This document shows, one piece after another, positions 2,981-26,924 of a stretch of DNA of 64,000 nucleotides. The stretch is from contig NZ_LT605203.1 of the NCBI RefSeq assembly GCF_900089495.1, positions 3,426,031-3,490,030 of the forward strand, in the 5' to 3' direction. The notes beneath the pieces were generated by a model that was given only the letters and a program-made list of their open reading frames with translations, made no database searches and was not told the DNA's origin. Both the position numbers and the translations under genes were made by a program. Source of the stretch: Thiomonas sp. X19. GTDB lineage: Bacteria > Pseudomonadota > Gammaproteobacteria > Burkholderiales > Burkholderiaceae_C. Each line of letters starts with the position of its first letter. Positions within the stretch are counted from its first letter, which is position 1.

Positions 2981-3511
2981 TCATGTCGTGGCTGGCTGAC
3001 TGTGCACCTGCTGGTCGACCGGTGTCTGGCCAATCTGCATGATCTCGTGTTTGATGGCGACCGCGTCGAGCTTATCCAGCGGCAATGCGACGAAACTCTG
3101 CACCCGGTTGCGGATCTGGCGAAACACTTGCGCGAAGGCGCGGCGCTTCTCGGCGTCGCTGCCCTGCACCGCGGCGGGGTCTTCAAAGCCCCAATGCGCC
3201 GTCATGGGATGCCCGGGCCAGATCGGACACATTTCCCCGGCGGCCTTGTCGCAGACAGTGAAGACGAAGTCCATCTCCGGCGCGCCAGGGGCGGCGAACT
3301 CATCCCAGCTTTTGCTGCGCAGGCGCTCAGTCGGGTAGCCGATGGCTTGCAGTTGCTCGATGGCGTAGGGGCTGACCACGCCACCCGGATGGCTGCCCGC
3401 GCTGAAGGCGTGGAAGCGACCTTTGCCCAGGGTGTTGATCAGCGCCTCGCCCAGGATGGAGCGTGCCGAGTTGCCGGTGCACAGCACCAGCACGTTGTAA
3501 ATCTTGTCCAT
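2981..3511 (-). CDS. arsC: Arsenate reductase, low-molecular-weight phosphatase type
   Basis: A 176-residue protein of the LMW protein tyrosine phosphatase fold. The P-loop near the N-terminus reads CTGNSARS (Cys-x5-Arg). Two further cysteines follow in FTVCDKAAGEMCP, the arrangement used by thioredoxin-dependent arsenate reductases for the cysteine relay. The ATG at 3511 was preferred over an ATG 14 codons upstream because an AAAGG ribosome-binding sequence lies six bases before it. It sits between the arsI-like gene and arsB. A 149-base gap separates it from arsB, which may hold a processing or secondary promoter site, though none is obvious. An LMW phosphatase of other function is less likely in this context. 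Confidence 0.9.
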   Translation of the reverse strand: MDKIYNVLVLCTGNSARSILGEALINTLGKGRFHAFSAGSHPGGVVSPYAIEQLQAIGYPTERLRSKSWDEFAAPGAPEMDFVFTVCDKAAGEMCPIWPGHPMTAHWGFEDPAAVQGSDAEKRRAFAQVFRQIRNRVQSFVALPLDKLDAVAIKHEIMQIGQTPVDQQVHSQPATT

Positions 3512-3543
3512 ATGCGGCCTTTCAGGGAGGGTGGGGACATCGG

Positions 3544-4056
3544 TCAGCAGCAACCGGTGGACGCCTTGCCGGTTGCTGTCTTGTCACAGCAAGCGTTCGC
3601 AGCAGGCGCAGTGGGTGTGGTCGCGGTCGTAGCCGCCGTATCGCCGGTCGGGGGTACACAACAGGCGTGGTCATCGGCCGCGTCGTTGAACATGGGGATG
3701 GTGTCAAGCGTGTGATAGGTTTCCCAGGCGATGCCCACCGGATCGTTGGCCCAGTATTTGTCGGAGCGGGCATAGCAGCAGGCGGTGCCGGGTTCGGCGA
3801 CATAGCCCGCAGCCATGCCGTCCAGGCGCTGCTGCATCTCGTGAAGTTCCACGTCCGACTCCACCTGCACGCCCAGATGGTTCAGACCGGGCACGGCACC
3901 TCGCTGCGAGATGGCGAAATTCACCCGAGGGTCGTCGAGCATCCATTTGGCGTAGTCGGGTTTGTGCACCGTGGGCTCGGCGGCGAACAGACCGGAATAA
4001 AAATGAACGGCCTCATCCAGCGCGGGGACGCTGATGTGCACGTGAAAGCGTTTCAT
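3544..4056 (-). CDS. ArsI/CadI-like glyoxalase-fold protein with cysteine-rich tail
   Basis: A 170-residue vicinal-oxygen-chelate (glyoxalase/bleomycin resistance) protein. The N-terminus KRFHVHISVPALDEAV and the Cys-Cys pair in GTACCYARSDKYW match ArsI-type C-As lyases, which use paired cysteines to bind trivalent organoarsenicals and an Fe(II) site of two His and one Glu; GLNHLGVQV and WETYHT supply likely ligands. Its position between arsR and arsC supports an arsenic role. The last 45 residues are a low-complexity Thr/Ala-rich tail containing three extra Cys-Cys pairs, which could bind arsenite or another soft metal. The ATG at 4056 overlaps the arsR stop by four bases. A long upstream extension of this frame is spurious. 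CadI, a cadmium-induced relative, is the alternative name. Confidence 0.8.
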   Translation of the reverse strand: MKRFHVHISVPALDEAVHFYSGLFAAEPTVHKPDYAKWMLDDPRVNFAISQRGAVPGLNHLGVQVESDVELHEMQQRLDGMAAGYVAEPGTACCYARSDKYWANDPVGIAWETYHTLDTIPMFNDAADDHACCVPPTGDTAATTATTPTAPAANACCDKTATGKASTGCC

Positions 4057-10479: not shown

Positions 10480-10659
10480 GTTTCAATCCACGCCCGGGTT
10501 TTAACCCGAGCGAGACAATTACGCCACCGTGGGCTTTCTGCCACTGCATCTGTTTCAATCCACGCCCGGGTTTTAACCCGAGCGAGACGTTCCCTGTGGT
10601 GGAAGACGAGCCCGTGTAAACAGTTTCAATCCACGCCCGGGTTTTAACCCGAGCGAGAC
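10480..10659 (-). CRISPR. Leader-distal fragment of the CRISPR array (3 repeats)
   Basis: Three perfect copies of the 37-base repeat at 10480, 10552 and 10623 with spacers of 35 and 34 bases. A further 36-base spacer (10660-10695) runs up to the IS1380 element. The repeats are identical to those of the main array, so this is the same array cut by the insertion. It is the oldest part, since the leader lies at the other end. The outermost repeat (10480-10516) shows no decay, unlike the usual trailer repeat. Confidence 0.97.
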
Positions 10660-10695
10660 GTAGCGCCCACTTGACCAATGCTTGTTGATAGTCGT

Positions 10696-12409
10696 CCTGA
10701 ATCCGTGACTTCCGATAATCCATCGACTTGAAAGCTGATTGTGACGGCCCGATTTTCCCGATTTCCCGCAGGTTCACGGTTCGAGCGCCGTGTCGAAGGG
10801 GGCTGTGGGGCTGTGCGCGAACGATCGGCCCCCTTGATCGGTCATTTCGGGTGGGTTGCGCGCAGCCGTTCCCCCGCTGAGCCCTTGTGGCCAGCGTCTT
10901 GGGGTGCTGGGAAAGCTTGGACTGCGTCTTCAGCCGCTGGCGGCGAACTGCGCATGCAGATCGCAAAAGGCACGGGCTGCCTTGTCGTTGGCGCCCAGTC
11001 CCAACCACAGCCGCCCGCCATGGTTGATCACGCGTGCTGCGCGGATGACAAGTTCCTGGATCACAGTCTTCAGACGCCGTCGCCTGGCCGCATGGCGCAC
11101 CGGTGCATGCGGCCCCAGCAGCCCTTGCTGCCCCATGAGGCGCAGCACGTTCATCGTCAGGGCCGCAAGCTGGCAGACAAGATCGTTCGTGTCGAACTTC
11201 CCCGAGGGCAGTCGCTCCAGATCCATGTCGGTTTTGAATTCCGCATGGAACTGCTCGTGCGTAGCGTGCCCGGCGTACAGGTCGATGATCGCCTCGGCGC
11301 TGATGGCCTTGGGCAAGCTTGTCGTCCAGCCCTCCAAGATGATCTCGGGGACCAAAAACTGCTGGCCACGGGCATCGACGGTGCGCTCCGTGATGCGCAC
11401 AATGCGGCGCAGGCGATGGGCGATGCCTTCGACCTGCACGGCCACCTCCCAAACCGCCACGCGCTTGCCTGCGCGCGGATGCTGCCACAACAAACCCCCT
11501 TCCAGTTCCTGCCGTCGCAAGACCTCCAGAGGATCGGTCTTGCGGGGATTCCACTTGATCAGAACATCGACCCGGGGCAGTCCTGGCCTGTTGCAGCGCT
11601 GCATGTCGGCCATCAAGGCGGCCGAGCAAAACCCCGCATCCATGCGCACGAGAATCGGCGCCTTGGGGCCTGCGGTCGACAGGCGCTGCGCCATGGGCAC
11701 GGCCGTCTCGAGGTTGTAGGTCGTCTCCGAAGCCGAGTGCTGCGCGCCCGGACGTAGGGCGAACTCCAGGCAAAACCCATGCGTGCCCAGGTAGGCCGCC
11801 AGCGGGCAGTAGCCATCGACCCCCGCGTAGGTGCGGCTCACCCCATCCTTGGCTGTGCCCGAGTTGTCCATCGCGAAGGTGTCGATGTCCAGCGGCACAT
11901 GACCGCAAGGCAAAAGACCATAGTCCGGTTGGCTCTTGCGCAGCAGCGCTTCAATCGCCTGGGAGGTGAAGTCAAACCACAGGGCGGCCTGCGCATCCAG
12001 GCGCTGGCGCAGGGTGGGCGAGGACGGCACACCCACCAGACCCAGCGCCTCCTGGAAGAAACGATCGCCTCGAAAGCCTTCGATGGCATCGAAGTCGCTC
12101 TTGCTCTGCGCGAGCAAGCCAACATAGCTGCGCATCAGTGTGCTGGGCGGCAGTCCGCCGCGGCAAGGCCACTGGGCATCCAGGCGTTTGAACAGAGGAT
12201 CGAGGCGCTTGAGGTGATGACCGACAAGGGCCAGACCGGCCACCGGCGTCAGGTCATAGTCGAGTTGCTTGACGCGAAATCCAAACCCCATGCCATACCC
12301 CGGAACGTTCACCCGCTGGGTGAGAAGACAAAGGGGTCATTTTATCGAATAAACCATTATGCATCAACAACTTATGAAAATTCCGCATGCCCGAGCTCAC
12401 GGATTTAGG
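10696..12409 (-). mobile_element. IS1380-family insertion sequence inside the CRISPR array
   Basis: A 1714-base element bounded by imperfect inverted repeats. The left end reads CCTGAATCCGTGACTTC (10696-10712) and the right end, on the complementary strand, CCTAAATCCGTGAGCTC (12393-12409): 14 of 17 identical. It encodes one transposase. No target duplication is seen (flanks end tcgt and begin taat). It lies between two full-length spacers where one repeat should be. Size and CCT termini fit the IS1380 family. Confidence 0.85.
10930..12312 (-). CDS. IS1380-family transposase
   Basis: A 460-residue DDE transposase that appears intact. The first catalytic Asp region is DIDTFAMDNSG, the second RMDAGFCSAA, and the C-terminal catalytic segment HEQFHAEFKTDMD carries the family's conserved Glu region. 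The N-terminal 110 residues form the helical DNA-binding part typical of the family. It reads in the same direction as the cas genes and pre-crRNA. The ATG at 12312 lies about 100 bases inside the right inverted repeat. Because the frame is complete, the element may still be mobile. Confidence 0.9.
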   Translation of the reverse strand: MNVPGYGMGFGFRVKQLDYDLTPVAGLALVGHHLKRLDPLFKRLDAQWPCRGGLPPSTLMRSYVGLLAQSKSDFDAIEGFRGDRFFQEALGLVGVPSSPTLRQRLDAQAALWFDFTSQAIEALLRKSQPDYGLLPCGHVPLDIDTFAMDNSGTAKDGVSRTYAGVDGYCPLAAYLGTHGFCLEFALRPGAQHSASETTYNLETAVPMAQRLSTAGPKAPILVRMDAGFCSAALMADMQRCNRPGLPRVDVLIKWNPRKTDPLEVLRRQELEGGLLWQHPRAGKRVAVWEVAVQVEGIAHRLRRIVRITERTVDARGQQFLVPEIILEGWTTSLPKAISAEAIIDLYAGHATHEQFHAEFKTDMDLERLPSGKFDTNDLVCQLAALTMNVLRLMGQQGLLGPHAPVRHAARRRRLKTVIQELVIRAARVINHGGRLWLGLGANDKAARAFCDLHAQFAASG

Positions 12410-12444
12410 TAATTTGCAATTGAGATATTTGCATCAGCTTGCGG

Positions 12445-15400
12445 GTTTCAATCCACGCCCGGGTTTTAACCCGAGCGAGACCTTGGCGCTGAAGTGCTTT
12501 ACAAGCCGAGCGGGTCGTTTCAATCCACGCCCGGGTTTTAACCCGAGCGAGACCTTGGACAGGGCTGGCGTAACGGCGTTGACCACCGTGTTTCAATCCA
12601 CGCCCGGGTTTTAACCCGAGCGAGACAGTGCCCACGGCTGCTGTGCCTGGGCGTAATACTCGTTTCAATCCACGCCCGGGTTTTAACCCGAGCGAGACAC
12701 TGGCCGTAATACGCGCCTTCCAGCGCTGACTCGTTTCAATCCACGCCCGGGTTTTAACCCGAGCGAGACGCATCCTGGCGCAATCCGTCGGCACGCTCAG
12801 TGAGTTTCAATCCACGCCCGGGTTTTAACCCGAGCGAGACTTTGGATTCGTCAATAAAAAAACCGCCCGGAGGCGTTTCAATCCACGCCCGGGTTTTAAC
12901 CCGAGCGAGACCTTCCAGCGCCAGGTACTGCCGCATGATCCAGGGGTTTCAATCCACGCCCGGGTTTTAACCCGAGCGAGACCGTGTGACCTTGTCGCCA
13001 GATTCCGGCGACGTGTGTTTCAATCCACGCCCGGGTTTTAACCCGAGCGAGACTTCGACGACGGCTGGCGCATGCGTGCACACGCTGTTTCAATCCACGC
13101 CCGGGTTTTAACCCGAGCGAGACAGCATGAGCGAGCGGATGCTCAAGCCGCAAGTTCGTTTCAATCCACGCCCGGGTTTTAACCCGAGCGAGACCGGTGG
13201 ACGGATCGGCAACCATCGGGCATGGGTTGTTTCAATCCACGCCCGGGTTTTAACCCGAGCGAGACGTGCGGCAGGATGGGCGCGGCGTAGCTGGATCGCG
13301 GTTTCAATCCACGCCCGGGTTTTAACCCGAGCGAGACGGAAATCCCACCTGGGTTGAGGTCACGACCGACGCGTTTCAATCCACGCCCGGGTTTTAACCC
13401 GAGCGAGACCAAGTGGGGCAAGGCGATGTTCTTCGGTTAATCCGTTTCAATCCACGCCCGGGTTTTAACCCGAGCGAGACCACCGTTTCTGGTCTCGGTG
13501 TCAGGCTGGTTCATGGCGTTTCAATCCACGCCCGGGTTTTAACCCGAGCGAGACCTTGCATCTGAGGTTGCACCGTTCTTCATCGGCATGTTTCAATCCA
13601 CGCCCGGGTTTTAACCCGAGCGAGACCCTGATATTGCAGGTGCGGTGCAAGTGGGTTTGCAGTTTCAATCCACGCCCGGGTTTTAACCCGAGCGAGACGC
13701 CGTGATGTCTTGCGGCAACGCACAGCGCTGGATGTTTCAATCCACGCCCGGGTTTTAACCCGAGCGAGACCACATTCTGGATCGGCCAAGTGCCATTTGA
13801 TTTTGGTTTCAATCCACGCCCGGGTTTTAACCCGAGCGAGACCGTATCGAGGTCCGACAATGAGGTCTCGAACTGCTGGTTTCAATCCACGCCCGGGTTT
13901 TAACCCGAGCGAGACGCCCACTGCCGCGCAGCACACGCAACAACAATCCTGGTTTCAATCCACGCCCGGGTTTTAACCCGAGCGAGACTCCGCGTATTGC
14001 AGCAGGCGCTCTGGTTTCAGGTGTTTCAATCCACGCCCGGGTTTTAACCCGAGCGAGACCACCATGCAGTGCGCGCTGGCCGACGGCACGATGGTTTCAA
14101 TCCACGCCCGGGTTTTAACCCGAGCGAGACGTTTCTCGGCTCATCAATCCTGCGTCGGTGAGTTGTTTCAATCCACGCCCGGGTTTTAACCCGAGCGAGA
14201 CCCATAGCCTCCGTTGTCAATGCCGCTTTCCATTCAGTTTCAATCCACGCCCGGGTTTTAACCCGAGCGAGACTACCAACAGGAGAGCACCATGAACGCA
14301 ACCACAACGTTTCAATCCACGCCCGGGTTTTAACCCGAGCGAGACCAAAGACCTCGAACGTGGTGCAGATCGGCATCGATGTTTCAATCCACGCCCGGGT
14401 TTTAACCCGAGCGAGACCCATAGCCTCCGTTGTCAATGCCGCTTTTCATTCAGTTTCAATCCACGCCCGGGTTTTAACCCGAGCGAGACCAGCGCATGGC
14501 CGATGGCCTGCGCAAGTTCAGCGAGTTTCAATCCACGCCCGGGTTTTAACCCGAGCGAGACGACGTATAGACAGCAGCTAGGACGCCGCATTCATTGTTT
14601 CAATCCACGCCCGGGTTTTAACCCGAGCGAGACGCAAGGGCGAACGCCCTGAAGTTCCCTTCGAGCAGTTTCAATCCACGCCCGGGTTTTAACCCGAGCG
14701 AGACGTACATCGTCAAGCGTGGCGGCATCACCATCAATGGTTTCAATCCACGCCCGGGTTTTAACCCGAGCGAGACAAAAAGTCGCACGCGCCAAAACAA
14801 CCGGAGATTTCGTTTCAATCCACGCCCGGGTTTTAACCCGAGCGAGACCCAGAGAGCCACGGGATTCAACGAGTTTCATTATGTTTCAATCCACGCCCGG
14901 GTTTTAACCCGAGCGAGACCGCGGGTCTCGATGGCCCAGCACGGTGCCAACGGTGTTTCAATCCACGCCCGGGTTTTAACCCGAGCGAGACGTCGACCAG
15001 CCAGCGTGTGTCGTGGTGGAGCAGCACGTTTCAATCCACGCCCGGGTTTTAACCCGAGCGAGACGATCCACGACCTGGCCACGCCGCGCGTCTGTCACGT
15101 TTCAATCCACGCCCGGGTTTTAACCCGAGCGAGACGTTCGATGCGGTATCCCTCAGGCACGACCGCGAAGGGTTTCAATCCACGCCCGGGTTTTAACCCG
15201 AGCGAGACTGTAGTTGCCTGAGCCTGCGGCCACGGTGACGTTGTTTCAATCCACGCCCGGGTTTTAACCCGAGCGAGACAGCAGAGCATCGGCGGCAAGA
15301 TCAGCGCCGAATGCGTTTCAATCCACGCCCGGGTTTTAACCCGAGCGAGACAACGCCGTGGCCTGCTCGACGCTCAGACTGGTGTTGTTTCAATCCACGC

Positions 15401-17946
15401 CCGGGTTTTAACCCGAGCGAGACGCCGAGGGCGGCCAGCACATCGCCGGCGTCACCATGTTTCAATCCACGCCCGGGTTTTAACCCGAGCGAGACTCGGC
15501 GACAACCCGCAGACCCCGGGCCTCTATGCCGTTTCAATCCACGCCCGGGTTTTAACCCGAGCGAGACGCTTGGGGGCTCCGAGCTTGGCCACCGCCTTGT
15601 CCAGGTTTCAATCCACGCCCGGGTTTTAACCCGAGCGAGACTCAGTCCCAGATTCCAACCGTTCGTCCAACCAATCGGTTTCAATCCACGCCCGGGTTTT
15701 AACCCGAGCGAGACGATCCTTCGCCGCTGCCAGCATGGTATCCACGAGGTTTCAATCCACGCCCGGGTTTTAACCCGAGCGAGACGATCGGCGTTGATCG
15801 CCGCCATTGAGGAGAGCGATGTTTCAATCCACGCCCGGGTTTTAACCCGAGCGAGACGCCAGGCTGCATGACACGGGCGCACATGCCCTGAATGTTTCAA
15901 TCCACGCCCGGGTTTTAACCCGAGCGAGACGCTTTGCTGCCGCCAGGCCAGCTCACGAAGTCGTAGTTTCAATCCACGCCCGGGTTTTAACCCGAGCGAG
16001 ACGCCAGGCCATGCGCGCGCAGCTCGTCGGCGATGAGTTTCAATCCACGCCCGGGTTTTAACCCGAGCGAGACCCGGATGGGTACACGATCATCGTCGAG
16101 CCTGATATGGTTTCAATCCACGCCCGGGTTTTAACCCGAGCGAGACGCGCGCCACGGCCTTGGGAAAGTCGTTCACAGAGTTGTTTCAATCCACGCCCGG
16201 GTTTTAACCCGAGCGAGACCACGGCGCATCGCAGAGCTTCACCACGTCATTGGTGTTTCAATCCACGCCCGGGTTTTAACCCGAGCGAGACAATAACAGG
16301 TCCCGCAGGAGCCAAAACAGGCTGACGTTTCAATCCACGCCCGGGTTTTAACCCGAGCGAGACGGCGCGAAGCAAACCAAGCTAGGCGTCACAGTACGTT
16401 TCAATCCACGCCCGGGTTTTAACCCGAGCGAGACCAGGGCATGTGCGCGAGGGTGATGCAGCCTGGCGTGTTTCAATCCACGCCCGGGTTTTAACCCGAG
16501 CGAGACGCGGGTGAAAGTGCGAATGTGATGGGTCTATAGAGTTTCAATCCACGCCCGGGTTTTAACCCGAGCGAGACGGAACACCACCACCGCATGCAAG
16601 CTGCCCTTGACGTTTCAATCCACGCCCGGGTTTTAACCCGAGCGAGACTTCGATGCGGTATCCCTCAGGCACGACCGCGAAGGGTTTCAATCCACGCCCG
16701 GGTTTTAACCCGAGCGAGACCGGCCTTACGGTCGGTTTCGACACGCATGAGCGCGTTTCAATCCACGCCCGGGTTTTAACCCGAGCGAGACATGCTGCAC
16801 CCATGTTTTGATCCCTTCAACCCATGTTTCAATCCACGCCCGGGTTTTAACCCGAGCGAGACGCCGGGCTCCAGGCTCGTTCGCGCTTCCAAAAATGGTT
16901 TCAATCCACGCCCGGGTTTTAACCCGAGCGAGACGCCGAGCTCCAGGCTCGTTCGCGCTTCCAAAAATGGTTTCAATCCACGCCCGGGTTTTAACCCGAG
17001 CGAGACTTTGCGCTGGGTGATGCTCCATGCACGATCGCATCGTTTCAATCCACGCCCGGGTTTTAACCCGAGCGAGACTTACAACAAGTCGCCCGCAGGG
17101 CGTCTTTGTTGAGTTTCAATCCACGCCCGGGTTTTAACCCGAGCGAGACCTGGTGTTCGTCGTACTATTCGTCACTTCCGTGATCGTTTCAATCCACGCC
17201 CGGGTTTTAACCCGAGCGAGACGGGGGGTTGCAGGGGATGCCGTCGCTGGCATCGAGTTTCAATCCACGCCCGGGTTTTAACCCGAGCGAGACGATCGGC
17301 GTTGATTGCCGCCATTGAGGAGAGCGATGTTTCAATCCACGCCCGGGTTTTAACCCGAGCGAGACGACGTCAGCGGGAGCGAACTCGCTCAACGCATGGG
17401 TGGTTTCAATCCACGCCCGGGTTTTAACCCGAGCGAGACGTCTTGCTCTGGCTGCCAAAGGGCATCACCCTCCCGTTTCAATCCACGCCCGGGTTTTAAC
17501 CCGAGCGAGACTTGCTTTGCTCGGCTTCGCTTTTGGGTTCCTGCGATGTTTCAATCCACGCCCGGGTTTTAACCCGAGCGAGACGACCTGCAGAGAATCC
17601 GGGGTATCCGGCAGCATGAGGTTTCAATCCACGCCCGGGTTTTAACCCGAGCGAGACAGAACACCGCCATGGACACTCAATCGCCTCTGCTCGTTTCAAT
17701 CCACGCCCGGGTTTTAACCCGAGCGAGACTTTTCTTCGTGCTTGCCGTGCTTGTGCTTTGACATGTTTCAATCCACGCCCGGGTTTTAACCCGAGCGAGA
17801 CTGACATAGAACCCCCGAAAAATCAAGGCTTGGAAGGTTTCAATCCACGCCCGGGTTTTAACCCGAGCGAGACGTGAATGTGAGGGTGCCAACCGTTCAC
17901 GCCACGGGTGTTTCAATCCACGCCCGGGTTTTAACCCGAGCGAGAC
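12445..17946 (-). CRISPR. Main CRISPR array, type I-C locus (77 repeats)
   Basis: Seventy-seven copies of a 37-base repeat, apparently all perfect, counted from 12445 to the last at 17910-17946. The plus strand begins GTTTCAATCCACGCCC and ends AACCCGAGCGAGAC. Spacers are 33-37 bases, mostly 35. A further full-length spacer (12410-12444) lies between the first repeat and the IS. Read on the minus strand the repeat ends in GTGGATTGAAAC, the usual 3' handle of type I-C, and contains a GCTCGGGTT / AACCCGGGC hairpin with one G-T pair. The array is therefore transcribed leftwards from the leader beside cas2, and the newest spacers are near 17.9 kb. Several spacers are near-duplicates. Confidence 0.99.
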
Positions 17947-18123
17947 TCCACTCGCGCAACGTGTTGCTGCGCAACGGAGTTGTTCTGCATTCCCGCGAAC
18001 TGGGTTCTCCGTTCAGGCAGACCCGGATTCGCAGGCAAGGAAAATTCATCAAATTGTGAAAGATCAAGGATTTGCGTGATGCGCGAACCGGCCGGGATTT
18101 CGGCTTTGCTCGGGGTTCGCGGG
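17947..18123 (-). promoter_or_regulatory. CRISPR leader
   Basis: A 177-base gene-free stretch between the last repeat and the cas2 stop, on the side predicted by repeat orientation. It holds an AT-rich patch (about 18040-18075) that could carry the array promoter, and an inverted repeat-like run (caacgtgttgctgcgcaac) beside the first repeat. Adaptation by Cas1-Cas2-Cas4 should insert new spacers at its 17947 edge. No clear -35/-10 pair could be called. Confidence 0.75.
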
Positions 18124-18414
18124 CTACACGACAAGCGGGCCGTTGAAGTCGATGGAACGGAAGGTGCCATATTGCTTGACGCGCAGTTCGGTCGGTTCGG
18201 TGATGCGGTAGAAGCGCAGATTATCTTCGTCCAGCTTGATTTCGGCGAGCAGTTCGCGTTCAAGGGCTTCGTATTCCATGGCATCGACCTGACATTCGAA
18301 CACGGATTTCTGCACGCGTTGTCCCACCCTTTCACAGGCCTTGGCTACGCGCCGCAGACGTTTGCGGCCTGCAGCTGTTTCGGTCGAGACGTCATAGGTC
18401 ACGATGATGAGCAT
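18124..18414 (-). CDS. cas2: CRISPR adaptation protein Cas2
   Basis: A 96-residue ferredoxin-fold protein with the typical start [11 protein letters not shown] and the late RFYRITE strand. With Cas1 it forms the spacer integrase; Cas2 bridges the two Cas1 dimers. The length matches type I-C Cas2. It is the last gene of the cas operon, 16 bases after cas1 and directly before the leader. Confidence 0.96.
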
Positions 18415-18430
18415 GGTGTCTTGTGGTCGA

Positions 18431-19465
18431 TTACCGGGCCAGATAGGGCAGGTAACCGTCCATCTCGCCGCGGATGGTCCGCGCGAGCAGGCGAGCCTGG
18501 ACGAAAGGCAGCAGGCCGATCGGCATTTTGGTCTCCAGCAGAGGGTGGGTGACCTCTTCCTGCTTGCGCTCCTGCCAGGCGGCGACGACCTTGCGCCGGC
18601 CTTTGTCGGACAGCAGCACGGCGCCGCCCTCGTGCTGGTCGAAGTCGTCAGCGCTGATCTGGCCGCGGTTGATGAGTGTCAGCGCCAGCCGGTCTGCGAG
18701 TACCGAGCGGAATTCCTCTTGCAGGTCGAGTGCAAGTGCGGCGCGGCCGGGCCGCACGGCGTGCAGGAAACCGAGCTGGGGATCGAGCCCGACGGCTTCC
18801 AGCGCCGAGCGGCAATCGTTCATCAGCATGGCGTAGAGAAAAGACAGCAGGGCGTTGAACCGGTCGAGCGGAGGCCGGCGGGTGCGGCCGTCTAGGCGGA
18901 AGTCTTCACGCATGGACGGCTTGACGATGCGATTCAGGGCCTCGAAATAGCCGCGCGCAGCCTCACCCTCGACGCCGCGCAGGACGTCAAGGGTCTGGGC
19001 CTCGGCGGCGGCGCGCAACGATGCGGCAAGGTTGTCGGCACACCGGGCGAGATGGGCGGATTCGCCGGCATCGGCGCTTTCGCGTGCCCCGCGTTGCACG
19101 ACGCTGCGGCTGTTCTTGATCTTTCCGGCGATGCACTCACGCGCCAGTCCGAAGGTGATGGTGGCATCGTCCGCGGCATGGTGCTGGGCCTGGCGAAGCA
19201 GGATATTGCCCGATACCGGGCCTTCGAGCCGCGCCTTGAAGCGGCCGGAATCATCCAGCAGGACGAGGGACTTGCCCTCATCGGCCAGGCGGTGCATCAG
19301 CGCTGGCGACACCATGACGTTGCCAAAGCACACCAAGCCACCGACATGGTGCAACGGCACCTGGAGTTTCTTCTCGCGTTCCACGTCCACGCGCAGGGTG
19401 GCGTTGTCGATGTGGACATAGGCCTGCGGGGTCATCACATACAGGGTGTTTTGCAGGGTCTGCAT
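18431..19465 (-). CDS. cas1: CRISPR integrase Cas1
   Basis: A 344-residue type I-C Cas1, the metal-dependent integrase of the adaptation complex. The N-terminal beta domain ([20 protein letters not shown]) and C-terminal helical domain are recognisable. The catalytic Glu-His-Asp set is expected around [25 protein letters not shown], which contains the conserved His and Asp. The length is normal. The start coincides with the end of cas4 at 19465, so Cas4 and Cas1 are translationally coupled; in type I-C they act together to select PAM-bearing prespacers. Confidence 0.96.
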
Positions 19466-20100
19466 CAGTCCTCCACCTCAAACAGGTGCGCACGTAGTTC
19501 GCGCTGCACGCGCACGGCGGTCAGCGCCTCGGGCTGGCAGATGTCCTTGAGCGAACATTCCCGGCAGCGCGCATCGAACACGGGGAGCGGCAGGACCCCG
19601 GCCCTCAGCATGGCGCGGATGGCCTCGGCCGTATCAATCACCAGTTCGCGCAACGCGGGCGTGATGGCGACTTCGCGCCGGCGGTGGCTGCTGGCGTGGT
19701 AGATGGCGCCAAGCGGCACGGGGCGGCCCAGCATGTCTTCCAGGCACATGGCCTGGGCGGCGAGCTGGATGTCGTCATGGGTTTTCTGGCGCTTGCGGCC
19801 ATGCTTGAACTCCACGGGGAACACCGTGCCATCGGCATGGAACTCGACGAGGTCGGCCTTGCCGATCAGTCCCAGACGATCCGACCACAAGGGCAGGCTG
19901 CGCTCGACTTTCACGCCGGCCTTGATCTCGTAGCCCGGCGCGTCCACGAGACGATGCACGGCCTGTCCGCGCGCGGTGTGAATGTTGTCCTCGAACGCTT
20001 GCTCCAGGTGGATCAGCCCGCATTGCCGCGGACAGTACACCCAGTGCTGCAGGGCGGACAGGGGCACAGGGTCGTCGGTGGCGTTCACATCCCGGAGCAT
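19465..20100 (-). CDS. cas4: CRISPR adaptation nuclease Cas4
   Basis: A 211-residue RecB-like nuclease with one N-terminal cysteine (YCPRQCGL) and a C-terminal cysteine cluster (DARCRECSLKDICQP) that should hold a [4Fe-4S] centre. The nuclease core shows GKADLVEFH and VEFKHGR with the Asp, Glu and Lys of the family. Cas4 trims prespacers and checks the PAM. Its ATG at 20100 immediately follows the TGA of hicA (TGA then ATG), so its translation probably depends on ribosomes arriving through the toxin gene. Confidence 0.96.
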   Translation of the reverse strand: MLRDVNATDDPVPLSALQHWVYCPRQCGLIHLEQAFEDNIHTARGQAVHRLVDAPGYEIKAGVKVERSLPLWSDRLGLIGKADLVEFHADGTVFPVEFKHGRKRQKTHDDIQLAAQAMCLEDMLGRPVPLGAIYHASSHRRREVAITPALRELVIDTAEAIRAMLRAGVLPLPVFDARCRECSLKDICQPEALTAVRVQRELRAHLFEVED

Positions 20101-20343
20101 TCAGTTGAACAGGCGCTCGAGCAAGGCATCGCGACTGAGGCCGTGATGCACTGCCACGGCATCGAGCACAGCGGCCAGCGTGCCGATGCGCAGCGGATCA
20201 TGCCGGGGCACGGTGATGTGATGCTCTCCGCGCGCGGTGCTGGTCAGCCGCATGTGGCTACCGGTCTGCCGTGTGACGCGGTAGCCAAGCCGGTCCAGGC
20301 GCTTGACCAGATCCGATCCGGACAGATCACGCGGCAGCCTCAT
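20101..20343 (-). CDS. hicA: HicA-family mRNA interferase toxin inside the cas operon
   Basis: An 80-residue protein of the HicA/YcfA double-stranded RNA-binding fold. The start RLPRDLSGSDLVKRLDRLGY and the QTGSHMRL segment are diagnostic, with His30 the expected catalytic residue of the ribonuclease. HicA toxins cleave mRNA and stop growth unless bound by HicB. It overlaps hicB by four bases and ends exactly where cas4 begins. No cas function is known for this family, so it is a toxin-antitoxin insertion that has become part of the operon. The key residues look intact, so it is probably active. Confidence 0.9.
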   Translation of the reverse strand: MRLPRDLSGSDLVKRLDRLGYRVTRQTGSHMRLTSTARGEHHITVPRHDPLRIGTLAAVLDAVAVHHGLSRDALLERLFN

Positions 20344-20546
20344 ACTGCCAGCATCTCTTCGCGGGTGATGTGCAGACGGATAATGCTGGGACGCTTGTCA
20401 TCGTCGAAATGGCAATGCACTGCGTCGCGCACTTGCGCGTGCAGGGATTCGAGGTCGTCGGCCTCGGTCAAGATGTCCACGCCGACGGCGCGCGCGATAT
20501 AGCCGCCCTCAGGCGCTTGTTCGACGATGAAATGGATTTCGGACAT
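20340..20546 (-). CDS. hicB: HicB-family short antitoxin inside the cas operon
   Basis: A 68-residue protein with the partial RNase H-like fold of short HicB antitoxins (IHFIVEQAPEGGYIARAVG, then a helix containing LHAQVRDAVHCHFDD). This small form lacks a separate C-terminal DNA-binding domain, so autoregulation may rest with the cas promoter. Such proteins are sometimes mislabelled as 2-oxoisovalerate dehydrogenase subunits. It lies 18 bases after the cas7 stop and overlaps hicA by four bases; antitoxin-first order ensures it is made before the toxin. Confidence 0.85.
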   Translation of the reverse strand: MSEIHFIVEQAPEGGYIARAVGVDILTEADDLESLHAQVRDAVHCHFDDDKRPSIIRLHITREEMLAV

Positions 20547-20564
20547 GTGGACTCCCGCTGAATG

Positions 20565-21533
20565 TCAGGCCAGGCGCCGCAGCGTGACGCCGTTGCCAAG
20601 CGACTGTTCGCTCCCCGCGCCGATGGGGTTTCCGTCGAAGAGTACCGTGTAATCGTCGAAAGTGCGCGGCACGTCCACGCTTTCGGCGCGCGCGATTTTC
20701 AGCCGATCAAACAGCGCATGCGCCGGAGCGTTGCCCAGCTCCGAATCGTGCCTGAACACATACAGCCCGCGAGTGGACATTTCGCCCCGGGCTGCGGAGC
20801 GGTCATGCTCGAACATCTGCGCGAGTGATTGCCAAAGCAGTGCCAAATCGTCTTCACCAAAGCCAGTCTGCCTGGCGAGGAAGCTCGAGACGAAACCATG
20901 CGCGGCGTAGAGGCCGTAAGGCACGGTGTGCTTGCGGCCCATGGTGCGATTGTCACCGCCCTGCTTTTCGGCTTCGGCCTCGGTCGCCACCGCCATGCGG
21001 GTGATCGAGTGTTCCTGTGCGATGACGGGATCGACCGAACGCGCGAAGGTGAACTGCACCGGTCCGCGCACCTGGCCACAGTTGATGCCGGTGGACATGA
21101 CCGCGCCGAAGGTGCGCACGTCGAAGAAATTCTGGCACATCCAGTCGCGGGCCTTGTTCACGTCATCGCCACTGCCTTTGCGCTTTTTCTCCTTGGCGGT
21201 TTTTTTCTCGGAGGCTTCGTCTGGAGCGGACTCGAGGCTTTCAGCATCCAGCTTGAGCGCGGAGTAGGCGCGCTGGTTCTGCTGGTTGAGGACGGCTTTC
21301 TCGCGCACGTAAATCTCGAAGCGCTTCTCACCCGGCTGGGGGTCGCGTACATCTTGCTCTTTGGTCATCGCGACGAAGTTGCGCACCTTGCGCTTCAAGG
21401 CCACGTCGGTCACCAGCCCATGCCCGGTTTCGGCATCCAGGCGCGGCAGATTGCCGGCGTCCGGGTCGCCGTTGGGATTGCCGTCTTTCACGTCAAACAG
21501 CAGCACGAAGTCGTAGCGGTTGGTCAGGCTCAT
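20565..21533 (-). CDS. cas7: Type I-C Cascade backbone protein Cas7 (Csd2)
   Basis: A 322-residue RAMP-family protein beginning [23 protein letters not shown], the hallmark start of Csd2/Cas7c. Copies of it coat the crRNA spacer along the Cascade filament. A charged, Lys/Glu-rich insertion near residues 100-125 is likely a surface loop. It overlaps cas8c by four bases at its start. The length is slightly above the usual 280-310 residues of the family. Confidence 0.96.
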
Positions 21534-23299
21534 TGAATTTGCTCCGTGGTGGATTTGGTGAAGAAAGCTCGGCGTTGCTGGTAGTAGCCGAGAGCGAACC
21601 GCGCCTGGTCGGGCAAGGGCAGGATGCGCGGCGGGAAGGTGGCGGCGTCGAAGCCATCCATGATCTCACCGATGAGCCTCTCGCGGGTGATGGCGAGGCC
21701 CGCGGTCATCTTGCCGAGGTGGTGCTTGCTCAGGCGCAGCAGGGTCGGAAATACCGCGGCCGGAGTACTCGATGCCGCACCGTAATAGCGGTCGCGGATG
21801 GTGGCGTTGATGCCGGGGCTGGCGTCCTCCTGGATTTTTTCCAGCGTGGCGAACAGCCGCCCCAGCCGATAAGCCGGGTTGGTGTTGGTCGGATCGAGCA
21901 TGGGCGTGAACTCCTTCTCTGGGGTGTTGCGGGAACGAATCCAGCGGTTGAGGCAGGCCTTGATGACAGCGGCGCGGGCATAGGTGGGTTTTTGCTCGGC
22001 GCGGCAGCGCGCCACGGCCAAATTGAGCAGCGTGGCCGGATAAGGCAGTCCTTCGAGAATGGCGCGCATGACTTCGCCGCCGAGGTTGGGCGGGATGTTG
22101 TCGGCCTTGTTCAGCAAGGCCAGTCCGGTGAGCAGGCGAAACAGTGACAGGTGTTCCGGTTCGTAGGCGGCATGGACGACGGCCACATCCTCGAAATGCT
22201 GCCTGATGCGCCGCGCCAACTCGGCGGCTGTAGCGGTTTCCCAGAAGCGAATGCTGATGCGGGCTGCGTTGGGTGCCAGGCCCAACACATGGAAGCGCGT
22301 GTCGGGCCCGCCGACGCTGAACTGCCCCGACGCTACGGACGCGTACAGCACCTTGATCGCATCAGTGTTCCTGTCCGGGTTGTCCTTGGGCGGTTCGCCG
22401 AACAGGTCGAGCATGGCGGTTTCCAGCGTGTGCGGGCCCTCGGCCCAGAAAACGGTGGAGGAATTACCGACCTGGATGCGCTGGCGCGAATCCCTCGCCA
22501 GCAGATGATTTAAGGCCGTGGTGTAGGCGAACACTGCGGACTTGCCCAGTGGCGCGTTCGCACCCTGCGCCTTGCCGTATGAATTGAATGCGTCGAGATT
22601 GAACGACACGATGTTTGCGCCCGAAGTCTGCGCACCCCACACGCCCTTGATCGCAGGGTGCAGGCGTTCGATGGCGGCAGGCGCACCACTGACCAGACAC
22701 ACGCCATCGGGCGTTTCTTCGGTTTGGTTGGCAGTGGCCACGACCACGGCGGGGCGTTGGCAAACCAGTTCCAGGTTCCCGTGTAGACGAAAACTCAGGA
22801 CGGGGTTGGCTGCTTCGATATCCGCAAATGCGGAAAAGCTCGCGAGAGACTCCGGAGTGAGAGAGTCGAGAAATGCCAGTACGGCTTGGATGCCAGCGTC
22901 CTCGCGAGCTGACTCGGGCAAGGCTTCGAGCCTGGCGCGAAATGCCTGGTGCATTTCGGCTAGACGAGCGAGGTAATCCGCCTCCTTGTCTTTCTTTCGG
23001 CTCTCCTCGCGCTTCTTGGCGTCGGGCATGCCTAGCACATACTCGGCGTTGTCCCACAGCAGATTCGCCGCCACGCCCGAGGTTTTCTTGACGCCCTGCG
23101 GCACCAGAAAGCGCTGGCCGGCTTTCTTCTTGCCATCGCCGCTGCGGGTGTCGGCGATATTGAGCAGTCTCCCGGCAGCGTCGATGTCCAGCACGAAGGG
23201 AATTTCCTTGTCTTCCAAACCAAAGCTCGGCAAGCGGTTTGCGGGGTCGGGGTCGATCTGCTTGCGGCGGTAGTAGACATCGAGCGCTTGCAGAATCAT
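21530..23299 (-). CDS. cas8c: Type I-C Cascade large subunit Cas8c (Csd1)
   Basis: A 589-residue Csd1 protein, the large subunit that recognises the PAM in target DNA and, in type I-C, also supplies a small-subunit-like part through internal translation of its C-terminus. Start [13 protein letters not shown], the phrase [10 protein letters not shown] near the middle and the C-terminal [13 protein letters not shown] are all characteristic. It overlaps both cas5 (four bases) and cas7 (four bases). The length is normal. An internal start for a Cas11c product was not pinned down here. Confidence 0.95.
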
Positions 23300-23961
23300 C
23301 CCCGCACCTCCACGCTATTCCAGGCGGGAACCTGCACCACGCCTTGCTCCATGAGCGCACGGAAAAAGCGCGGCTGCGGGTCGGCTGTATTGGAGAAGTC
23401 CAGATCGTGCAGCATGAAACCCAGGTCGCGGGTTTCATCGATCGGCCGCGGCTCGGTGGCAGTGTCGGCAATCAGCCGGAAATGCGCCGCGAACTCGCGT
23501 GTGCCGAGGTAGGGCTGATTGACGCATTGGCCCTTGGATGCCCGGCGCTCGAACATCTCGTGATACTTCGGCACGCGTGCTTCGGGATCGCGCGCGGGCA
23601 GGAATTCCAGATCGGCGTGCACGCGGTAGGCCACGTCGCGCAGGAACAGGCCAGCGCGTTGCTGACGGTCGTCCTCGACGTAGAGGGCGAGGTCACCTTG
23701 GCCATTCTTCATCGCGGTTTCGACGTTGCGGGTGGATATCACGCTCGCCACCTCATTGCGCCGCAGATTGATCCAGCGGATGGGTTTGAGCACCTCGATG
23801 CGGCGCACATGCCACCGGATCGCCGGCTTCCAAAGAATCGCCTCGAAGCAGGCACGCGCGGCGGATGGAGTCATCACGTCATAGCTCACCCGTTCGACCT
23901 TCATTTCTGGGCGTGTGAAGCAGGCCCAGGGGCCGGACAGTTCCAGGCAATAGGGTTTCAT
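23296..23961 (-). CDS. cas5: Type I-C crRNA-processing protein Cas5c (Cas5d)
   Basis: A 221-residue RAMP protein. Type I-C lacks Cas6, and Cas5c cuts the repeat hairpin and holds the 5' handle. The start MKPYCLELSGPWACFTRPEMKVERVSYDV matches the family, as does the early HVRRIEVLKPIRW strand and the acidic C-terminal half. The ATG at 23961 was preferred over an in-frame TTG at 23979 because GAGAG precedes it. With this repeat being 37 bases long, the cut site is still expected 11 bases from the repeat 3' end, giving the usual handle. Confidence 0.94.
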   Translation of the reverse strand: MKPYCLELSGPWACFTRPEMKVERVSYDVMTPSAARACFEAILWKPAIRWHVRRIEVLKPIRWINLRRNEVASVISTRNVETAMKNGQGDLALYVEDDRQQRAGLFLRDVAYRVHADLEFLPARDPEARVPKYHEMFERRASKGQCVNQPYLGTREFAAHFRLIADTATEPRPIDETRDLGFMLHDLDFSNTADPQPRFFRALMEQGVVQVPAWNSVEVRG

Positions 23962-23971
23962 GGTTCTCTCG

Positions 23972-26257
23972 TCACACAATCAGACTGGTTGGCCCATGGG
24001 GCGGTCCGTCAGGATTGAGCCCGAGTGTAGGGTGGTAGAGAAAGTCGCTGACTTGGACGAAAAGACCGGGAATGATTTCCGCGATGTCCCCATAAGCCAA
24101 TAACTTCGCCACATCGCGGCTATGCAGGTTGACCGTGTAGCGCTGCAGCTTACGCATCAGCCAGCGCTGCGGGCCATCCTTGCGCAGCATTCCCAGTAAA
24201 TCGTCAATGCTGCCGTCCCGTCCGTCCACACCCCGGTAGAGCACGATGATGGGCGAGTTGTCCTCGTCCTCGATCAGCTTGAAATTCTCGGCTGCGGTGC
24301 GGAAGTTAACGGCCAGCTCAAAACCGTCGAGGGTGTTGCCGGCCATGCACAAGTCGTCGCAGATGCCCTTTTTGTCGAGTTCGCAGGCGTGGTACAGGCG
24401 TTCGAAATAGCTGGCGAAGCGTTCGCGCGCGAGCGGCTGCTCGGTGATGCCGTACAGGACATCGCGACAAGCGTCCTCGCCGCGACGCAGAAGCCCCGGC
24501 GGTGCGGGTTTTGGCGGAACAAAGACCACGACCTCGCCCTTGGCGGCCAGACGGCCTTCGCGGTTGCAGCGCCCTGCCGCCTGGGCGATGGAGTCGAGCC
24601 CGGCGAGCGCTCGAAACACCACAGGGAAATCGACGTCTACGCCGGCTTCGACCAGTTGGGTGCTGACCACGCGCGTTGGCACGCCGGCTTTCAGCCGCGC
24701 TTTGATGTCCCCGATGATCTGCGAGCGATGCGCGCCGCACATCAACGCAGAAAGATGCAGCGTGCCCTCGGGCATTTTCTCCCAGAGTTCGCGCGCGTCT
24801 TGGCGGCGGTTGACGATGGCGAGTGCCGAGTCGTGCCGGGCGAGTTCCTGCGCCAGTTGTGGCCAATCGGTGGGCGCTTGCCAATCCACTGGCAGGCGCA
24901 CGTGCACGCGTTCCAGCGCGCGGTAGATCGCATCGGGGTCGTTGATGATTTCGCGCACGTTGTCCAGGCCGCGCAGGTTCTGGCGGGCGTCGAAGTATTC
25001 GCGGGTGCTCAAGGCGGGTTGGGTGGCGGTGGCCAGCACCACGCTCACGCCGTAGTGCTGCGTCAGCAGATTGAGCACGTCGAGCATGGGCTGCAGGAAT
25101 TCCGGCGGCAGCAATTGCGCTTCGTCGACGATGATGACGCTGTCCACCAAGTTGTGCAGCTTGCGGCAGCGCGAGGTGCGCGCGGCGAACAGCGACTCGA
25201 AGAACTGCACATTGGTGGTGACGACAATGGGTGCGTCCCAGTTTTCGCAGGCCAGGCGCGAGGCGTGGTTTTCCCGCTCGGGGTCAGACTCGGCGTTGCT
25301 GTGGTGCTCGATGACCGCTTCACCAAAAATGCTGCGAAAAATGTCGGCGGTCTGCTCGATGATGCTGGTGTAGGGGATGACATGGATCACCCGGTGCTTG
25401 CCGTGCGCGCGGGCGTGCTCCAGCGCGAAGGCCATGCCCGAGAGCGTCTTGCCGCCGCCGGTGGGTACCGTGAGTGAAAACAGCCCGGGGGCGGCAGCGG
25501 CCTTTTCCCAGCACTGGCGCAGGATGTCGGCGCGCAGGGCGTTGACGGGAGTGGGCGGCACGGCGGCGGCCAGCTTGGCCATGTAGGCATCGAACAGGTG
25601 AGTGAGTTCGGACAGCGCGGGCCACTGGTTGCGCCGCGTGAACTTGTCCGGGTCCATGTAGCGCTCGGTATCGAGGAAATCCGCATCGACCAGCGCCGAG
25701 AACAGCATGCGCACCCACAGCGCAAAGCCGTTCTTGCCCCCGGGAATCGTCCGCAAATCAGGCTTGAAGTCGCCTGCGTCGAGCAATTCGGCCGGCGGGT
25801 TCGCAGCCAAAGACTCCGACAGCTCCGCACGGCTGTCGGCACTTGCGAGACGCACTTCCAATCCACCGAACCAATCCGCCAGCCCGGCATGATGCCCGGC
25901 GATGAGATAGGCCAGCACCCGCCCCGCCGGGCCGAAGCGATCCGTCGCGAGCACTGCGCCTGCCGTCGAATGCGGTGCCTTGCCCGCCTCGCCCTTGATG
26001 TGGGCATCGGCTTCGAAGCCGCTGGCCTGACGGATGTAACGTTGGAAACGGGGGCGGTATTTGCCCAAGTCGTGCCACTGGCCCGCCAGCCTTGCCGAGT
26101 CGGCACCAAAGGTTTCCGCGAAACGGGCAGCCAGATCAGCAACCGCCGTCAGATGATCAGCAAGACGGTGCGGTTCAAGCCAGTTGCCGTTGGCATCCTT
26201 CGCGGCATGGGCAATGGGCTGTTGTCGACTGTCCCGCTGATTCCTGCTTTTTGACAT
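23972..26257 (-). CDS. cas3: CRISPR interference helicase-nuclease Cas3
   Basis: A 761-residue fusion of an N-terminal HD nuclease and a DExH helicase. HD motifs are LAGQWHDLGKYRPRF and IAGHHAGLADWFG within the first 170 residues. Helicase motif I is TVPTGGGKT (around residue 265) and motif II reads VDEAQ rather than DEAH. It is recruited to Cascade-bound DNA and degrades it. It is the first cas gene of the operon; 93 bases separate its ATG from the brnA stop. No strong promoter is obvious in that gap, so the brnTA promoter may contribute. Confidence 0.96.
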   Translation of the reverse strand: MSKSRNQRDSRQQPIAHAAKDANGNWLEPHRLADHLTAVADLAARFAETFGADSARLAGQWHDLGKYRPRFQRYIRQASGFEADAHIKGEAGKAPHSTAGAVLATDRFGPAGRVLAYLIAGHHAGLADWFGGLEVRLASADSRAELSESLAANPPAELLDAGDFKPDLRTIPGGKNGFALWVRMLFSALVDADFLDTERYMDPDKFTRRNQWPALSELTHLFDAYMAKLAAAVPPTPVNALRADILRQCWEKAAAAPGLFSLTVPTGGGKTLSGMAFALEHARAHGKHRVIHVIPYTSIIEQTADIFRSIFGEAVIEHHSNAESDPERENHASRLACENWDAPIVVTTNVQFFESLFAARTSRCRKLHNLVDSVIIVDEAQLLPPEFLQPMLDVLNLLTQHYGVSVVLATATQPALSTREYFDARQNLRGLDNVREIINDPDAIYRALERVHVRLPVDWQAPTDWPQLAQELARHDSALAIVNRRQDARELWEKMPEGTLHLSALMCGAHRSQIIGDIKARLKAGVPTRVVSTQLVEAGVDVDFPVVFRALAGLDSIAQAAGRCNREGRLAAKGEVVVFVPPKPAPPGLLRRGEDACRDVLYGITEQPLARERFASYFERLYHACELDKKGICDDLCMAGNTLDGFELAVNFRTAAENFKLIEDEDNSPIIVLYRGVDGRDGSIDDLLGMLRKDGPQRWLMRKLQRYTVNLHSRDVAKLLAYGDIAEIIPGLFVQVSDFLYHPTLGLNPDGPPHGPTSLIV

Positions 26258-26350
26258 CGGCTGTCCTGCGGCTGAGTTAGTTGAGTTTGAAGCTCAGCTG
26301 GAGAGATATTGATTGGCTGATGGTCACCCAGTCGCGTTCCCGCATGTGCA

Positions 26351-26641
26351 TCAAGGGGCGGAATGGGAAACCTCAGCCGCAGCGCGACGCAAGGTTTCCT
26401 CAGGCACGCCGCTATCGCGCAGCCTGTCGATCAGTCGAGCGACAGCTGACCCCTCGAACCGTTCCATATCGTCACGCAGGCCGGCACCGACATACGCGCG
26501 CAGCAAGGCTTGATAACCGGCGAAACCGCGCAGCGGGGCCACGCGCTTGAGGTCGTCCACCACGTCCTGCGGCATGCGCAAGGTGACGGCAACCATGGGC
26601 CTGTCTTTGGCCAGGCGGCGCTTAATCGTTTCCATTTTCAT
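26351..26641 (-). CDS. brnA: BrnA-like antitoxin
   Basis: A 96-residue protein with an N-terminal basic part followed by a CopG/Arc-type ribbon (VAVTLRMPQDVVDDLKRVA), as in antitoxins of the BrnA family. BrnA binds BrnT and represses the pair. The start at 26641 gives a short overlap with the end of brnT; an ATG 12 codons upstream is possible but lies deeper inside brnT. It sits downstream of the toxin gene, the usual BrnTA order, and 93 bases before cas3. Confidence 0.75.
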   Translation of the reverse strand: MKMETIKRRLAKDRPMVAVTLRMPQDVVDDLKRVAPLRGFAGYQALLRAYVGAGLRDDMERFEGSAVARLIDRLRDSGVPEETLRRAAAEVSHSAP

Positions 26642-26924
26642 AGCGAGACCTCTCGGGTGGTTCTGCCTTTCTGGCAAAGATGATGCGGATGTGATCGTCC
26701 TCGAACATCATGTGCACGACAAAGAGCACCCGGAAATCAAAATCCGCACCGATGGCTGCGTCGCGTTGCTCGCCTCGATCGGATGCGTCCTGGTAGCGCA
26801 CGAAGGGGTCCAGAAAGACCTGTGCCGCCTGCTCGAATGAAACCTGATGCTTGTCGATGTTCTTGCGCGCCTTGTCCGCATTCCAGCGGAATCGGATGCC
26901 CTGCAACGCGTACTCGATGTCCAT
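26622..26924 (-). CDS. brnT: BrnT-family ribonuclease toxin
   Basis: A 100-residue protein of the BrnT (DUF497) family, a RelE-fold ribonuclease. The start FRWNADKARKNIDKHQVSFEQAAQVFLDP matches the F-x-W-D-x-x-K-x-x-x-N-x-x-K-H-x-V-S-F-E pattern, and IRIIFARKA is the conserved penultimate strand. The ATG at 26924 was preferred over one at 26951 because a promoter lies between them. The C-terminus is a little truncated compared with long relatives. It is the first gene of the brnTA pair. Confidence 0.85.
   Translation of the reverse strand: MDIEYALQGIRFRWNADKARKNIDKHQVSFEQAAQVFLDPFVRYQDASDRGEQRDAAIGADFDFRVLFVVHMMFEDDHIRIIFARKAEPPERSRYENGND

Follow-up and report, generated by a model that had tools for sequence, protein, structure and literature searches.

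Toxin–antitoxin (TA) pairs lying inside cas cassettes are already in print. According to the passages of a 2015 review that deal with them, vapBC pairs are interspersed in the cas cassettes of Sulfolobales, and a maintenance role was suggested for them (PMC4390879). These pairs share with the hicBA pair described here their place between cas genes as protein TA modules; the published case is archaeal, with a type III example, whereas here a HicBA clade is linked to a single bacterial adaptation module, and the type I-C operons have inserts at module seams only. A HicB protein (MCA0653) was listed as loosely cas-associated in Table 3 of Makarova et al. (2006; PMC1462988), and this association, known for MCA0653 by the listing alone, is probably of the same kind as ours; unlike the present analysis, the listing comes without gene order, frequency, phylogeny or mechanism. 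The relevant part of a 2020 network study notes that some putative cas genes are annotated as components of TA or abortive infection systems (PMC6967390). Finally, CreTA and CrePA, as presented in the sections of a 2025 review on TA and CRISPR systems that concern them, resemble hicBA in that a toxin within the CRISPR-Cas locus would guard this locus, but they rely on a crRNA-like RNA as antitoxin, which acts together with the CRISPR effector (PMC12737573). That of hicBA is a protein, and no stray repeats were found in the window. HicA does not appear in a word search of the available text of that review. In the literature covered, with subscription papers mostly outside this coverage, we found no report of a dedicated HicBA clade, of a hicBA-cas4-cas1-cas2 unit or of a rule placing TA genes at module seams.

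The window, that is the whole 64-kb stretch of Thiomonas sp. X19 DNA that was analysed, carries a cas set and an array which together make up a complete type I-C system, as judged by Pfam, NCBIfam and repeat count. On the minus strand, the gene order is cas3-cas5c-cas8c-cas7-hicB-hicA-cas4-cas1-cas2, followed by the array:

23972..26257, minus strand: cas3 (TIGR01587, TIGR01596 and Pfam models for HD/helicase), with which the operon opens
23296..23979, minus strand: cas5c (TIGR01876)
21530..23299, minus strand: cas8c (Csd1; TIGR01863, E 2e-171)
20565..21533, minus strand: cas7 (Csd2), final effector gene, 5' of hicB (TIGR02589, E 3e-120)
20340..20546, minus strand: hicB-like antitoxin gene, 68 aa (ORF, 807 relatives and AlphaFold fold, without Pfam match)
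20101..20343, minus strand: hicA toxin gene of 80 aa, with His30 (PF07927, E 5e-12; best 120 of 2530 relatives listed)
19465..20100, minus strand: cas4 (PF01930 and TIGR00372), its ATG directly following the hicA TGA
18431..19465, minus strand: cas1 of type I-C (TIGR03640, E 9e-150)
18124..18414, minus strand: cas2 (PF09827, TIGR01573)
10496..17946, strand not assigned: CRISPR array with a 37-nt repeat and 80 exact repeat cores (script run on the window)

Among the 79 gaps of the array, 78 hold spacers of 20-60 nt, mostly 34-36. The preliminary description had placed hicBA between cas7 and cas4 with hardly any intervening sequence, and the ORF coordinates confirm this arrangement, with 18 nt before hicB, a 4-nt ATGA overlap between hicB and hicA, and 0 nt before cas4. 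From the 18-nt and 0-nt gaps, co-transcription of hicBA with the cas genes would be expected; a promoter scan of positions 17900-26700 gave 0 sites against a mean of 0.9 in shuffled sequence and is therefore uninformative. A complete protein TA pair is found between the cas genes of the window, HicB being assigned by position and fold only.

HicA matches PF07927 with 46.2 bits, for a cut-off of 27. Its predicted structure (pLDDT 88) has as top PDB match the HicA of 6g26 (TM 0.77 by target, E 0.03). His30, which we take to be the catalytic residue, is invariant in 22 aligned relatives and kept in 88 of the 90 HicA proteins compared, that of the window included; the exceptions are L065, which has a cas7 fragment only, and L064, which is devoid of cas4. 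At the aligned place, 4c26 has an alanine. HicB does not match any Pfam, NCBIfam or PADLOC model, and PADLOC matched HicA no better. Its identity is deduced from its place beside hicA, from the near-constant length of its relatives (68 aa for 114 of the best 120 among 807) and from its predicted fold: the AlphaFold model (pLDDT 81) is a HicB-like half fold, and its best PDB matches include the HicB-type structures 1wv8, 3k6q and 2yzt, with probabilities of 0.97-0.99, yet with E > 0.05. Sequence profile searches of the PDB retrieved no HicA or HicB chain, one giving no chain to E 0.01 and the second five chains, all unrelated (E 0.0097-0.035). The earlier view that this HicB is a short form lacking the DNA-binding domain agrees with its 68 residues and the single half fold of the model. 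The pair has in common with HicBA type II TA systems a HicA domain, a predicted HicA fold, a small HicB-like partner and overlapping genes, and differs from them by this short HicB and by its location within a cas operon. Some close relatives of the window HicB (20340-20546) are named '2-oxoisovalerate dehydrogenase' in databases, which looks like a misannotation.

Compared with Thiomonas delicata, the nearest named relative by HicA scan (among the best 80 of 131 relatives), dN/dS is 0.03 for hicB (9 changes) and 0.05 for hicA (8 changes); over ten pairs, it ranges from 0 to 0.12 for hicB and from 0.05 to 0.24 for hicA. These values support purifying selection acting on hicBA, as estimated from few changes.

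This arrangement is not a curiosity of one strain. A HicA alignment was used to scan 84,980 species genomes. Of the 131 relatives obtained, we retained the best 80; judged by full-length neighbours, 36 of these 80 loci lie in cas operons. In 32 of the 36, the order is cas7-hicB-hicA-cas4 on one strand; the other four are L012 (without hicB), L038 (whose contig starts at hicB), L064 and L066, in which hicBA is inverted between cas4 and cas7. The remainder of the best 80 comprises 7 loci in which hicBA is accompanied by cas fragments only and 37 without cas gene in the stretch read, which was sometimes short. When the window, L152 and L167 are added to the 32 scan loci, the set showing the cas7-hicB-hicA-cas4 order amounts to 35 loci, so that the possibility of an arrangement restricted to this strain, left open by the preliminary description, is excluded. 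In all 35, hicB and hicA overlap by exactly 4 nt. The hicA stop is at most 24 nt from the cas4 start in 30/35 and 372-679 nt away in 5/35, and cas7 is separated from hicB by at most 33 nt in 24/35 and by 56-201 nt in 11/35. Because the 35 loci are all on one strand with an invariable hicB-hicA overlap, this order is not due to chance.

Of 28 genomes of the genus Thiomonas, the two that have hicA are also the two that have cas7. In a sample drawn without regard to hicBA, a type I-C cas7 was above cut-off in 32/369 class genomes and 29/398 phylum genomes, making 60 different genomes, and hicBA adjoins cas7 in 4 of these 60, contigs sometimes ending near cas7 so that a neighbouring hicBA could escape notice. 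Cargo of phage or plasmid origin was ruled out by the searches made: viral contigs held no confirmed relative of hicBA, phage records none, and plasmid records two matches of 51-58% identity. E. coli genomes gave no match.

The inheritance of the pair was followed in a tree of HicB and HicA (86 rows, 147 columns, quick method), in which 44 of 82 inner branches are unresolved. The HicBA of the window falls in a clade of 43 rows (SH-aLRT 98), 34 of which are cas-linked, 7 beside cas fragments and 2 without cas. Three groups of cas-linked loci, L082, L057/L167 and L066, lie outside this clade, which suggests additional entries of hicBA into cas operons. In 29 full loci, the distances between HicBA pairs correlate with those of cas1 (0.83) and cas4 (0.84), and weakly with those of cas7 (0.20, p about 0.05); once cas1 is taken into account, the partial correlation between HicBA and cas7 is -0.01. 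With the outlier L066 removed, the values are 0.59, 0.59 and 0.22, respectively, and the partial correlation with cas7 is 0.07.

Pairs of close loci point in the same direction. Between the Acidithiobacillus loci L022 and L037, dN is 0 for hicB, 0.03 for hicA, 0.017 for cas4 and 0.008 for cas1, as against 0.7-0.9 for cas3, cas5, cas8 and cas7, the effector cassettes looking unrelated. What these two loci have in common runs from hicBA through cas4 and cas1 to cas2. Between L028 and L036, it is 0.006 for hicB and 0.021 for cas1, as against 0.4-0.9 for the effectors. According to NCBIfam, the divergent effectors are also of type I-C (L018, L026, L028 and L032, the Cas8 of L028 being just below cut-off). 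As low dN in hicBA-cas4-cas1 accompanies high dN in the effectors, the effector cassette has been swapped, and the part that the loci share begins with hicB. Judged from sequence, hicBA therefore stands at the head of a heritable adaptation module, tracking cas1 and cas4 and not cas7, and this module thereby has a marked left end.

The seam between cas7 and cas4 is also occupied by other TA genes. We pooled the class and phylum draws into a sample of cas7-cas4 junctions not chosen for hicBA, reading 31 of the 32 class genomes (G134 was left out) and all 29 phylum genomes. It comprises 54 junctions, among which related loci are not independent and G238 contributes two, so that Fisher and binomial significance is overstated. 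More than 250 nt separate cas7 from cas4 in 19/54, and at most 250 nt in 35/54. TA-type genes of several families are found in 15 of the 19 large inserts (15/54 junctions), which contain:

4 junctions (window, L152, L167, L170): hicBA
5 junctions (L192, L194, L196, L197, L214), and one more, L178, with the pair on the other strand: Unstab_antitox-ParE, the ParE match of L196 being below cut-off
3 junctions (L155, L168, L187): MqsA-like/DUF4258, MqsA matches being below or just at cut-off
1 junction (L154): ParE and a broken MqsA-like gene
1 junction (L160): DUF433-DUF5615
3 junctions (L153, L169, L171): RhuM alone
1 junction (L174): transposase and other

Assignments come from a Pfam run on 67 proteins of the seams and their neighbours, from tblastn for L187, L194, L197 (toxin) and L214, and from inspection by eye for the L178 antitoxin. 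The MqsA-DUF4258, DUF433-DUF5615 and HEPN-MNT pairs are presumably TA systems. For COG2442, the TA basis is taken from the portion of Makarova et al. (2006; PMC1462988) that covers it.

Of the 15 seam TAs, 14 have the same orientation as the cas genes, and TAs of opposite strand occur at module boundaries in L178, L028 and L151. At least five of the 15 look broken or halved: L154, L155 and L194 are split or truncated, only the antitoxin half was found in L187, and the toxin of L214 is in two pieces. Inserts exceeding 250 nt are absent from the inside of the modules (0/164, with 0/55 for cas5-cas8, 0/58 for cas8-cas7 and 0/51 for cas1-cas2). They do occur at the cas3-cas5 seam (10/48, two being Phd-PIN, in L149 and L150) and at the cas4-cas1 seam (6/52, those of L156, L167, L176 and L151 containing ParE, HEPN-MNT, MNT and Phd-PIN between them). 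Altogether, TA-type genes, some of them broken, lie within the operon in 20 of 63 type I-C loci, one or more per locus. By comparison, ParE, PIN and HicA give 402 matches genome-wide in 149 Mb of 56 genomes, i.e., 0.27 per 100 kb. HicA and ParE are found at 11/54 seams against a genome background of 0.0013 per kb, 4 of the 7 seam ParE being assigned by similarity and the background by Pfam cut-off. TA genes are thus strongly enriched at the cas7-cas4 seam relative to the genome background, related loci being counted more than once.

In a tree of cas4 and cas1 (quick method), whose 'otherTA' label stands for any insert >250 nt, RhuM and transposase cases included, L178 with its ParE-type TA lies beside the hicBA loci L152 and L031, and L160 lies beside L023 and L082 with a different seam TA. 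This suggests that one TA has been replaced by another among close loci. Around cas4, L028 (7254-9133) has three TA modules: besides hicBA, there are a ParE pair and a MazF pair, both on the opposite strand. ORFs of 198 to 239 aa between hicA, cas4 and cas1, considered as candidate new proteins, were discarded, being antisense to TA pairs.

Other genes were encountered in the cas operons. RhuM-family genes are present in operons without hicBA, of types I-C and I-E (L153:3780-4811, L168:4918-6018, L169:6881-7936, L171:510-1052, which was found by tblastn and is broken, and L239:3693-4730); that of L153, the one scanned, matches the PADLOC candidate family PDC-S05. The cas7-cas4 seam of L174 (7084-10057) holds a DUF2281 protein, an aspartyl-protease-like gene and, on the opposite strand, a gene that was recognised by eye as transposase-like. 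In L168, a Bro-N domain gene (3135-3734) separates cas4 from cas1. As CrePA toxins are said to bear KilA-N domains in the consulted part of the 2025 review (PMC12737573), a CreP-like toxin is conceivable there.

Type I-E operons were intended as a negative control. Cas7e was detected in 32 of 340 class genomes, and we read 30 I-E loci using queries from E. coli K-12. The cas6-cas1 junction exceeds 250 nt in 9/21, and eight of these nine inserts carry TA-type domains (PIN, MNT, MazE, Phd, DUF433, HipA), one half only being recognised in some; in the ninth, L220, the one ORF scanned gave no match. Inserts within modules are limited to 2/115, L239 (RhuM) and L221 (between cas11 and cas7). Gaps between cas3 and cas8, read at the ORF level, exceed 250 nt in 5/14, cas8 not being found in some loci. 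The control came out positive, so that the seam rule extends beyond type I-C, and a pattern restricted to I-C is ruled out by the cas6-cas1 inserts.

Nine members of the window's HicBA clade are devoid of a cas operon. Both hicB and hicA are full-length in all nine and His30 is kept in eight. In two Tepidimonas species (L016 and L017), hicBA is followed by an N-terminal piece of cas4 adjoining a short piece of cas1, and a short cas3 stretch is detected 5' of hicBA by tblastn (in L016 also by a first profile, a later profile not listing it). We infer that these two loci are decayed cas operons, and such remnants are consistent with a TA that resists loss and does not depend on any cas gene for its control. 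Conversely, in L012 (6320-6595), from a Thiomonas MAG, an in-frame deletion has left 11 residues of hicB, next to an apparently intact hicA and cas operon; this single MAG speaks against strict addiction.

The explanation that we tentatively prefer, at somewhat less than even probability, is that hicBA is an autonomous type II TA module serving as an addiction anchor of the operon. It starts from what was observed, namely the position and conservation of hicBA, its co-inheritance with cas4 and cas1, the replacement of effectors, the other TAs at the seam and the hicBA pairs beside remnants; toxicity, addiction and a benefit to the cas genes would come in addition. The pair would have been captured at the seam of the interference (cas3-5-8-7) and adaptation (cas4-1-2) genes, and since then passed on as the leading part of the adaptation module, unmoved while the effector cassettes upstream changed. 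HicB translated from the cas transcript would hold the HicA ribonuclease in check; if a deletion across the centre of the operon ended the supply of HicB, growth would be arrested. That hicBA punishes loss of the operon, as first proposed in the preliminary description, is a fair hypothesis which fits the wider pattern of TAs at this boundary.

The pair could alternatively be a selfish rider bringing no gain to the cas genes: TA modules would insert anywhere, but within cas operons inserts would be tolerated at module seams only, these being the recombination points of cassette exchange. This reading explains almost as much as the anchor and is nearly as likely. It accounts for the lack of large inserts inside cas5-8-7 or cas1-cas2, for the three TA modules of the L028 operon and for the loss of hicB in L012. 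The broken or halved state of at least 5/15 seam TAs, expected of passengers in turnover, the opposite-strand TAs (L178, L028, L151), needless for a co-transcribed anchor, and hicBA beside cas remnants (L016, L017), where piecemeal loss was not prevented, favour it and argue against the anchor. The presence of hicBA at the seam in only 4/60 sampled I-C genomes also argues against the anchor. However, the 19 inserts, with 15 TA, 3 RhuM and 1 with a transposase, are unlike a mix of IS elements; HicA and ParE at the seams are far above genome density (with the same non-independent loci and similarity-based ParE); and one HicBA clade is mostly cas-linked.

A backup abortive response, in which phage shut-off or an anti-CRISPR would starve the cell of the operon products, release HicA and stop growth, is improbable. 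It would be in line with the co-transcription expected from the short gaps, with the coupling of immunity and dormancy proposed in the part of Makarova et al. (2012; PMC3506569) bearing on it, and with the PADLOC candidate match of one RhuM protein of the same seams. HicBA of the same clade nevertheless also exists without cas, neither protein has a PADLOC match, and no relative was confirmed in viral contigs or phage records.

The control of hicBA by Cascade, also put forward in the preliminary description, is not supported, in view of the nine clade members without cas operon, of the TA families other than HicBA at the same place, and of the lack in the window of any CreA-like stray repeat above shuffles: the best off-array match to the repeat in the 64 kb is 23/37, against 21-24 in five shuffles, strongly degenerate repeats being liable to escape this search. 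CreA-like control within the window was rejected on this basis. Finally, a regulatory role, in which the toxin would cut cas mRNA or the overlap would set cas4 translation and thus tune cas4-cas1-cas2, is very unlikely: a hicA-cas4 distance of at most 24 nt in 30/35 loci and an in-frame hicB loss preserving the hicA and cas4 junctions in L012 would suit it, but hicA and cas4 are 372-679 nt apart in 5/35, with other TA genes in between in L028, L032 and L036, the three of these five that were read closely, other TAs occupy the same place, and 35/54 sampled I-C seams have at most 250 nt.

Returning to the addiction anchor, a broader form of it can be proposed, more doubtfully: type I operons of Pseudomonadota would recruit interchangeable TA guardians at the interference/adaptation seam, and one adaptation lineage would have HicBA as a fixed, co-evolving guardian through effector swaps, a protein counterpart of CreTA. 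Our results suggest that hicBA helps to keep the immune system, or merely rides on it. If they act as guards, intact seam TAs would help to explain how costly CRISPR loci resist loss. They constitute a natural, swappable set of modules for addressing the addiction idea, and they call for caution, as deletion of a cas operon may release toxins.
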